Shown here: one piece after another, positions 21,870 to 44,089 of the stretch
Position numbering within the stretch: the stretch's first letter is position 1
How the letters are laid out: the number at the start of each line of letters is the position of its first letter
Assembly: GCA_026196615.1 (NCBI GenBank)
Contig: JAPHSW010000198.1
Coordinates: 1 to 46,206 of the forward strand
Reading direction: 5' to 3'
DNA length: 46,206 nt
Source of the DNA: Gammaproteobacteria bacterium
GTDB lineage: Bacteria; Pseudomonadota; Gammaproteobacteria; GRL18
The notes under the pieces: generated by a model
Seen by the model: the letters and a program-made list of their open reading frames with translations, nothing else
The model's database searches: none
Told to the model about the DNA's origin: nothing
Made by a program: the position numbers and the translations under genes

Positions 21870-21897
21870 TTGACATTAAAATCAAAATGCATAGAAT
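21870..21897 (+). promoter_or_regulatory. Promoter of tRNA-Asn
   Basis: A consensus -35 TTGACA (21870-21875) and a -10 TAGAAT (21892-21897) are separated by 16 bp. Transcription should begin near 21904, about 25 nt before the mature tRNA. Confidence 0.75.
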
Positions 21898-21928: not shown

Positions 21929-22003
21929 TCCCCAATAGCTCAGCGGTAGAGTAGGTGACTGTTAATCACTTGGTCGCATGTTCGAATCATGCTTGGGGAG
22001 CCA
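21929..22003 (+). tRNA. tRNA-Asn (anticodon GTT)
   Basis: The full cloverleaf is visible: acceptor arms TCCCCAA/TTGGGGA, D arm GCTC/GAGT, anticodon stem GGTGA/TCACT with loop CTGTTAA (GTT at 21961-21963), variable loop, and T arm GCATG-TTCGAAT-CATGC. The discriminator is G and CCA is encoded (22001-22003). It is a single tRNA with its own promoter and terminator, reading AAC and AAU. Its N6-threonylcarbamoyl modification at A37 would depend on the TsaB-containing pathway also present here. Confidence 0.97.
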
Positions 22004-22011
22004 AACACTAT

Positions 22012-22047
22012 AAGGCTTTGAGAGACTTTGTCCTCAGAGCCTTTTTT
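22012..22047 (+). terminator. Rho-independent terminator of tRNA-Asn
   Basis: AAGGCTTTGAG pairs with CTCAGAGCCTT (one G-T wobble) around a 10-nt loop and is followed by T4. It starts 9 nt after the tRNA CCA. Confidence 0.9.
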
Positions 22048-22089: not shown

Positions 22090-22118
22090 TTGACTGTAAA
22101 ATAATAAAAACATAATAA
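22090..22118 (+). promoter_or_regulatory. Promoter of the 34-codon membrane peptide gene
   Basis: TTGACT (22090-22095) and TAATAA (22113-22118) are separated by the ideal 17 bp. The ATG is 30 nt beyond the -10. Confidence 0.65.
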
Positions 22119-22147
22119 TTTAAATATATCCAGAAAGGATGCTTACC

Positions 22148-22252
22148 ATGACAACAGAAATAACTCTTAATATCATTAAAACAATATCCCTGGCAGGCGC
22201 TGCTTTGATTGGTCTCATGGCTTTTGCTTTGCTATTTAATATCACTATTTAA
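22148..22252 (+). CDS. Small single-helix membrane peptide, 34 aa, unrecognised
   Basis: A 34-codon frame encodes a peptide starting MTTEITLNIIKTI and ending LLFNITI. Residues about 9-31 form one continuous hydrophobic helix containing a small-residue patch (LAGAAL), with Glu4 and Lys11 as the only charged side chains. It is too short for usual gene callers. It nevertheless has a complete transcription unit: a 17-bp-spaced promoter (22090-22118), GAAAGGA about 10 nt before the ATG, and a strong terminator at 22291-22313. I do not recognise a family; regulators of larger membrane complexes or small oxidase subunits have this look, but no function is assigned. Confidence 0.65.
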   Translation: MTTEITLNIIKTISLAGAALIGLMAFALLFNITI

Positions 22253-22290
22253 TAATACATTTACCTCACCATTAGTGTAGGATATTTAGA

Positions 22291-22313
22291 AAGGCTCATT
22301 TATGAGCCTTTTT
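22291..22313 (+). terminator. Rho-independent terminator after the 34-codon gene
   Basis: AAGGCTCAT and ATGAGCCTT form a perfect 9-bp stem with a very short loop, followed by T3 and a G. It lies 38 nt past the stop codon at 22252. Confidence 0.85.
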
Positions 22314-22508: not shown

Positions 22509-22700
22509 ATGATAGATTTAAGACAGAATGCTTCTGAAGATACTTATGATCCATTTAACGATGGTTGGAATGAACGAATTGCTGGTAAGCATCAAACTGA
22601 TAACCCTTTCGGAATTAATAATTGGAAATTCTATGAATGGGAAAAAGGTTGGCTAGAAGCTAATACAGCTATTGATAAAGAAGAAAAAAAACCAGCTTAG
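22509..22700 (+). CDS. Ribosome modulation factor-like small protein
   Basis: The 63-aa protein has the pattern 'DPFNDGWNERIAGKHQTDNPF' then 'NNWKFYEWEKGWLEA'. This matches the core of the RMF family (G-W/Y-xx-G-xx-G...NP...W-x-x-G-W-x-x-A), in which the E. coli protein dimerises 70S ribosomes in stationary phase. Unlike true Rmf it is acidic and lacks the strongly basic N-terminus, so it may be one of the wider RMF-like proteins with another role. AAGGAA lies about 6 nt upstream of the ATG. It precedes the DUF2905 gene by 30 nt on the same strand. Confidence 0.72.
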   Translation: MIDLRQNASEDTYDPFNDGWNERIAGKHQTDNPFGINNWKFYEWEKGWLEANTAIDKEEKKPA

Positions 22701-42270: not shown

Positions 42271-43845
42271 TTAAAGCACATTGCCTAAATAGCATAATTT
42301 ATTACGCCCTGTTTTTTTCGCAGTATAACAAGCCTCATCTGCTTTTTTCAGTGGCACATCAATATTATCACTGTCATCATCAATATTCGTCAGACCAAGA
42401 CTGGCGGTCACATTAAACTCTTGAGACTGCCACTCAAAAATCATTGCTTCCAGAGAAAATCTAATGCGTTCTGCTGTGTCCTTTGCTTCCTGTTCATTTG
42501 CATGACGCAATATTATAGCAAACTCATCACCACCTAAACGGGCAACATAATCTGTATTACGCACAGCACCTAACAAAATTTGTGCAACTTGCTTTAATAA
42601 TTGATCACCGGCAAGGTGTCCGGCCGTATCATTGATCGTCTTAAAGTTATCCAGATCGATATAGCATAACCATGCTTTAATTTCATCATAACGTTTTACT
42701 TCATTAATGGTATCTATCAGTTGTTTCTCAAAAATACGACGATTATACAATTGAGTTAATTCATCATGATTAACTTGATAATTCAACTGTTTATGTAACT
42801 TTTGTATTTCATTGATATCATGAAAAACAACTACAATACCATTTAATTCCTGATTTATTATTACAGGAGAAATACTATATTCTACTGCTAGTAATTCATC
42901 TTCATTTCTTTGCAGAAAGATCCAACCATTAGACTTTTTTACTTGATTGATGTGTGGATTACTTCTGAGTAATTCAATACGCTGTGATAAATTATGTTCA
43001 CTGTATAGGTGAACAACATCATCCAAATAGCAACCAACAATTTTTTCTGATTTTAGTCCCAATAGTGATTGAGCCACTCCATTTACTTGTTCAATACGAC
43101 CTTGAGCATTTGTTAAAAAAACACCATCGGCAATTGAATGCAGAGTAATCATCGCCCTCTTCTGTGCTTCCTTTAGATTATTCTCTGATTGATTTACTGT
43201 TTTATAAATTAAATAAGCAATATAAATACTGATCAGTGTTATCAATATCGATGCCAATAATACAATTCGTTTAGCATACCAATTGAGATGATTAGCACCT
43301 ATTAATGCCTGATTATTCTTATTTTCAACATTGCTTTCAATTTTTCTGAAAAATTGTAACATCTGAGTTTGTAGTGGATTAGCCTTTGTAAACAAGAGAT
43401 GTTTAGCCACATTATTCTCATCGTCAATAGCTAATTGCACAATTTGATGTTGAATTCTTCCTAGTGGTTGAGTTAACTGATCCTGTTCTTCTAGTAATTG
43501 TTTGATTTCATCACTAATTGGCATATTGTATAAATCATTACGACTTACAATAAATTCAGTGCCAAAGCTATTAAACTGCATCCATAATTCATCACGTATA
43601 AATGGATCATCCACAGATACAATCTTGAAAACAGTCAGAATGCGCTCACGAGCTGCTGTATGCATTTTATTTAACTGATAGAGATGATTACCATTAATTT
43701 CAATGACATCTCTCAGATTGGACACACTTTTTTCAATAGCTTTTATTGAAATCATGCTTAATATGATAAGTAGCATCATGACGATAATAAAGCCAATTAA
43801 CATCGTTTTTCTGCTAGTATGAATTTTATTATTTTTATTTTTCAT
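42271..43845 (-). CDS. Membrane PAS-GGDEF diguanylate cyclase under a cyclic-di-GMP riboswitch
   Basis: The 524-aa protein has a transmembrane helix (about residues 14-36), a periplasmic four-helix-bundle-like sensor (about 37-190), a second helix (about 193-217), a PAS domain (about 230-345) and a GGDEF domain with GGDEF at 438-442. The inhibitory RxxD site (RNTD) lies five residues earlier. It should sense a periplasmic signal and make cyclic di-GMP. I start at ATG 43845, which has AGGTG five bases upstream; a GTG at 43851 is possible. A GEMM-I riboswitch lies in its leader at 43988-44076, behind a clear promoter, so its own product probably controls its expression. Confidence 0.93.
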   Translation of the reverse strand: MKNKNNKIHTSRKTMLIGFIIVMMLLIILSMISIKAIEKSVSNLRDVIEINGNHLYQLNKMHTAARERILTVFKIVSVDDPFIRDELWMQFNSFGTEFIVSRNDLYNMPISDEIKQLLEEQDQLTQPLGRIQHQIVQLAIDDENNVAKHLLFTKANPLQTQMLQFFRKIESNVENKNNQALIGANHLNWYAKRIVLLASILITLISIYIAYLIYKTVNQSENNLKEAQKRAMITLHSIADGVFLTNAQGRIEQVNGVAQSLLGLKSEKIVGCYLDDVVHLYSEHNLSQRIELLRSNPHINQVKKSNGWIFLQRNEDELLAVEYSISPVIINQELNGIVVVFHDINEIQKLHKQLNYQVNHDELTQLYNRRIFEKQLIDTINEVKRYDEIKAWLCYIDLDNFKTINDTAGHLAGDQLLKQVAQILLGAVRNTDYVARLGGDEFAIILRHANEQEAKDTAERIRFSLEAMIFEWQSQEFNVTASLGLTNIDDDSDNIDVPLKKADEACYTAKKTGRNKLCYLGNVL

Positions 43846-43987
43846 TAACACACCTGATACAAACGTTCAAAGTATCATATTGAATAACAGGCTATAAACT
43901 ACAAGAGAAATTTTTAAGCAGACTAAAAAGAAAGGAAACCAAAAGCAGTAAATGCTCAATATAAAAAAGTACTGAAACATTAAAATT

Positions 43988-44076
43988 TCATCGGTAACCC
44001 CGCTATCATAGAATAAAAAAATCCCTTAGATCGGCAGCTTTGCGTCCCACACCTTTCGAATGAGGTAAGCCTTTAC
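43988..44076 (-). ncRNA. Cyclic-di-GMP-I (GEMM-I) riboswitch
   Basis: Read leftward from 44076, the sequence has the GEMM-I landmarks in order: GGCTTACC, CATTCGAAAGG (GNRA tetraloop arm), GTGGGACGCAAAGCTGCCG, CTAAGG, a short variable loop, then ATAGCGGGGTTACCGATG. These match the V. cholerae Vc2 aptamer blocks (UUCGAAA, GGGACGCAAAGCC, CUAA, UAGCGGGGUUACCGAUG). The aptamer ends about 140 nt before the GGDEF gene start. A promoter lies just upstream. I could not identify a convincing terminator or a sequestered ribosome-binding site, so whether ligand turns the gene on or off is unknown. Confidence 0.95.
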
Positions 44077-44089
44077 GAATTAACCGCTT

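Follow-up and report, generated by a model that had tools for sequence, protein, structure and literature searches.

A conserved 34-codon gene behind tRNA-Asn in sulfur-oxidising marine bacteria encodes a predicted single-span membrane peptide

The window analysed here, a stretch of 46,206 nucleotides from a gammaproteobacterial contig (JAPHSW010000198.1), carries near its middle a tRNA-Asn gene with its own terminator, followed on the same strand by a short gene for a hydrophobic peptide (Table 1). A sequence-only reading of this stretch had proposed a complete transcription unit directly after the tRNA terminator, composed of a promoter with 17-bp spacing, a ribosome-binding site, 34 codons forming one helix and a strong terminator, and had taken it for a real small-protein gene or else a small RNA with a decoy frame. 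The position behind the tRNA terminator was borne out, as was the ribosome-binding site, which is conserved within the genus. An upstream in-frame ATG is present at 22139 and was ruled out as the conserved start: in two orthologs, single-base insertions fall between the two ATGs, which shows that 22148 is the conserved start. Within the conserved leader, a small ATCC/GGAT inverted repeat surrounds the Shine-Dalgarno sequence. After the tandem-stop stretch TAATAATA (22250-22264, +) comes a TTTA that is conserved in nearly all orthologs.

Table 1. Features of the tRNA-Asn and peptide locus in the window, and the probable paralogs in related genomes.
Feature	Position	Strand	Remarks
tRNA-Asn (GTT)	21929-22003	+	ARAGORN and Rfam; constant upstream neighbour of the peptide gene
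tRNA-Asn terminator	~22012-22046	+	Hairpin and T tract; separates tRNA-Asn from the peptide unit
Claimed promoter TTGACT-18-AATAAT	22090-22119	+	Weak, not conserved
Leader, 26 nt	22122-22147	+	Conserved within the genus; contains the Shine-Dalgarno sequence
Shine-Dalgarno AAAGGA	22134-22139	+	8 nt before ATG 22148
Peptide gene MTTEITLNIIKTISLAGAALIGLMAFALLFNITI	22148-22252	+	34 codons; ATG 22148, TAA 22250-22252
Tandem-stop stretch TAATAATACATTTAC	22250-22264	+	Conserved within the genus (84% mean pairwise identity)
Intrinsic terminator of the peptide unit	~22289-22313	+	10-pair stem, T tail
Probable paralogs	L057 9938-10051; L058 9926-10024	-	Behind Fur-like boxes

Of the proposed unit, the ribosome-binding site, the 34-codon frame and the terminator stood, and the promoter did not. 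The best partner for TTGACT at 22090 is AATAAT, at a spacing of 18 bp instead of 17 (10/12 matches), the –35 box changes among orthologs, and promoter-like sites are three times as frequent in the AT-rich region as in shuffles of it (12, with 4.1 expected); we do not find this promoter convincing. A strong-looking candidate for the tRNA promoter, TTGACA-16-TAGAAT, lies at 21870, and the peptide gene may be transcribed by readthrough from it. The hairpin of the tRNA terminator is retained in orthologs, with stems of differing sequence. The terminator of the peptide unit, described earlier as strong, is genuine across most of the genus, its stem covarying among orthologs through compensatory changes such as GGCTC/GAGCC, GGCCC/GGGCT and CCGCTG/CAGCGG. 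A hairpin scan returned no clear hairpin in genomes G004, G012, G013, G014 and G021, one being visible by eye in G014.

Whole-genome searches recovered the same frame, at 32–34 codons, in 15 genomes (11/16 of the window's own genus and 4/6 of the sister genus), always downstream of tRNA-Asn and in the same orientation. Across the 30 alignable codons shared by the orthologs, overall pS is 0.54 and pN 0.14, giving a pN/pS of 0.25, and the six nearest relatives show pN of 0.03–0.09 with pS of 0.38–0.58. The corresponding ratios are 1.3 and 3.4 in the other forward frames and range from 0.44 to 2.6 in the antisense frames. Protein identity is 0.77 versus 0.51 +/- 0.04 in column-shuffled alignments; 0/1000 shuffles reach the observed value and all 1000 contain stops. 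The codon-level comparison with relatives that the sequence-only reading had recommended thus finds frame, start, stop and protein kept and synonymous sites variable.

Conservation outside the frame is narrow. Among members of the genus, the 26-nt leader averages 85% pairwise identity, compared with 45% further upstream, and beyond the leader and the 15 nt from the stop onwards flank identity drops to 41–45%; the sister genus does not retain the leader. Since frame, start, stop and protein are conserved, synonymous sites free and flanks mostly unconserved, a protein is favoured over a decoy frame. By this signature of selection, the frame at 22148-22249 (+) qualifies as a genuine protein-coding gene under purifying selection, from which we infer its translation. 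A small RNA or dual-function RNA, in which the frame would be decoy or secondary, is very unlikely: the strong terminator and the conservation of leader and 15-nt post-stop stretch, as high as that of the frame, would suit it, whereas the overall RNA fold is barely better than that of shuffles (z –1.5) and selection acts on codons. The pN/pS values and the column shuffles all but rule out a pure decoy frame, though not a dual-function RNA.

The gene is missing from nine family genomes. Five of these (G002, G005, G010, G017, G023) also have no detectable tRNA-Asn locus, which makes the absence there uninformative, and G001, G006, G016 and G018 have the tRNA-Asn without the peptide gene; because these four keep the tRNA alone, the gene is dispensable. 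It occurs once in the host genome. No partner gene was linked to it or shown to be co-inherited with it, and its link to tRNA-Asn looks like plain synteny. In G006 and G018 the tRNA-Asn has the look of a hot spot for integration, its 3' halves being duplicated (G006 C8 9810-18531, L068; G018 C11 and C35, L069 and L072); in G006, two such copies flank ~8.6 kb, with a serine-resolvase-domain protein close to the tRNA copy. This appearance would be expected if the peptide gene were a remnant or cargo of an element integrated at tRNA-Asn, a reading we regard as scarcely credible, as the orthologs are syntenic, lie on contigs with a single tRNA-Asn copy (ARAGORN, BLAST) and are under purifying selection, and phage, plasmid and viral collections hold no copies of the peptide. 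Separately, the nearly closed genome G013 carries the segment with tRNA-Asn and peptide twice in one chromosome (L044, L045), each copy with repeat-rich stretches and IS-like transposase frames close by.

Searches of Pfam, NCBIfam and PDB at E up to 10 returned no match or non-significant ones only, and a PHROGs search at E up to 1 gave no significant match, in keeping with the earlier remark that no matching family was known. Among 369 genomes of the class and 397 of the phylum, no convincing match fell outside the window's own family, the two weak ones lying within long unrelated frames, and a literature search on tRNA-linked small proteins found nothing relevant. Judged from these searches, the peptide does not extend beyond a single taxonomic family of marine sulfur oxidisers. 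Among the relatives are symbionts of two deep-sea lucinid clams, Lucinoma myriamae and Bathyaustriella thionipta; ten such lucinid-symbiont MAGs are sulfur oxidisers of the Thiohalomonadales, family SZUA-152 (PMC9938160). Because B. thionipta yielded two MAGs (PMC9938160), we only infer that SZUA-152 is the taxon of the window and of the exact B. thionipta MAG. The result is a firmly conserved new protein family from chemosynthetic marine bacteria, deep-sea clam symbionts among them, of a length that often escapes annotation pipelines, and it illustrates that reading raw sequence can uncover genuine tiny genes.

AlphaFold2 models the peptide as a single helix of residues 2–33 (mean pLDDT 91.8), and its highest 19-residue hydropathy is 2.2, both consistent with the one helix assigned to the 34 codons by the sequence-only reading. 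Having fewer than ~50 codons under protein-level selection and a predicted hydrophobic helix of membrane length, this lineage-restricted peptide belongs with the small single-span membrane proteins, its family being new and its membrane location a prediction. The residues invariant across all 16 sequences are M1 together with L7, K11, A18, A25, L28, F30 and N31, and the tRNA-linked copies additionally share an invariant LNI and a C-terminal FNITI-stop. The single lysine in the N-terminal third suggests, by the positive-inside rule, a cytoplasmic N-terminus (N-in).

The reading we prefer, at a probability of roughly 0.6, is that of a monocistronic, vertically inherited gene whose product acts as a single-span accessory subunit or modulator in the inner membrane. 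By analogy with proteins of this kind, the helix would cross the inner membrane, its Lys11-side N-terminus facing the cytoplasm and its conserved FNITI C-terminus lying at the edge of the periplasm. The small residues at positions 14, 17, 18, 22 and 25 could pack against a larger membrane complex, which the peptide would stabilise or tune as AcrZ, CydX and KdpF do for their partners. A helical-wheel analysis of conservation yielded no significantly conserved face (p = 0.31) and hence does not establish a defined packing interface.

AcrZ, the small partner of AcrB, is a single helix of the inner membrane encoded by a stand-alone gene. A structure paper deals with AcrZ and AcrB together (PMC7267776). 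The peptide likewise has a stand-alone gene and a single predicted helix; it differs in being shorter, and neither Pfam nor PDB gave an AcrZ match up to an E of 10. The small cytochrome bd subunits CydX and CydH are single-span peptides of ~30 residues, as is the KdpF subunit, and the peptide resembles all three in length and predicted topology. It differs from CydX and CydH in having no Pfam, NCBIfam or PDB match, and cytochrome bd was rejected as a partner, CydA not being found in the host genome (G000). KdpFABC was likewise rejected, with KdpA in 0/24 genomes of the order, host included.

Type I toxins such as TisB, Ldr, Ibs and Hok are short and hydrophobic, and the peptide is so too. The main rival to an accessory subunit is accordingly a stress peptide, or one like type I toxins, that depolarises the membrane and is curbed by an antisense RNA or by its leader. 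Its size and hydrophobicity would fit, the gene can be lost, and the Shine-Dalgarno sequence sits inside the small inverted repeat conserved within the genus; for lowering the proton motive force, the small membrane protein YohP provides a recent precedent (PMC12719787). We nevertheless consider this unlikely. No promoter-like sites were found on the minus strand over gene or leader, and the unconstrained synonymous sites make a conserved antisense RNA within the frame improbable. In contrast to those toxins, moreover, the peptide shows long vertical inheritance at one site, with one copy in the host and no multi-copy or mobile spread to phages or plasmids, and it is devoid of a charged C-terminal tail.

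Two additional peptides, one in G007 (contig C172) and one in G012 (C110), are matched by a profile from which they were excluded (genome-scale E of 7e-4 and 1e-4, respectively) and are probable paralogs of the tRNA-linked peptide by sequence. Leu7, Lys11, Ala18, Ala25, Leu28, Phe30 and Asn31 are unchanged in them too, and the G012 paralog shares 69% identity with the G013 peptide. Both are preceded by Fur-like boxes (TGATAATNATTATCA, 1–2 mismatches), in regions that hold 14–18 Fur-like sites versus 3–4 expected; a Fur box was also looked for upstream of the window copy, and none was found. By gene names assigned by eye, the G012 paralog is divergent from a feoA/feoB-like pair and the G007 paralog lies near genes resembling aprM, aprB and aprA. 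The Fur-like boxes in front of these two paralogs hint that relatives of the peptide are produced when iron is scarce, and it is therefore reasonable to guess at a transporter or an iron-containing respiratory complex as the partner. That the tRNA-Asn-linked and Fur-controlled forms replace one another on a shared membrane complex as iron supply changes, as a lineage-specific family, is a distinctly improbable extension. Should its partner be identified, the peptide could reveal how a transporter or respiratory complex is tuned in sulfur oxidisers.

A more specific form of the accessory-subunit reading would make the peptide a subunit of a heme-copper oxidase, like the tiny single-span subunits of such enzymes. 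One ortholog weakly resembles bacterial aa3 oxidase subunit IV, at a Pfam E of 0.18, which is below the cut-off and non-significant, and a COX1-type oxidase is encoded by the host genome and 22/24 genomes of the order. The two do not always occur together, however, as G006 has the oxidase without the peptide and G012 the peptide without a detected COX1. The heme-copper oxidase is thus an available but unproven partner, and to this specific proposal we give little credence.

Two other places in the window drew attention. Downstream of the peptide unit, a gene at 22509-22700 (+), adjoined by a DUF2905 gene, encodes a 63-residue protein that resembles ribosome modulation factor weakly, at a score below the cut-off (NF011162, E 0.016). 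Further along, a c-di-GMP-I riboswitch at 43990-44081 (-) lies ~140 nt upstream of a gene at 42271-43851 (-) whose product, by sequence, looks like a GGDEF diguanylate cyclase, an arrangement in which feedback control would be possible.
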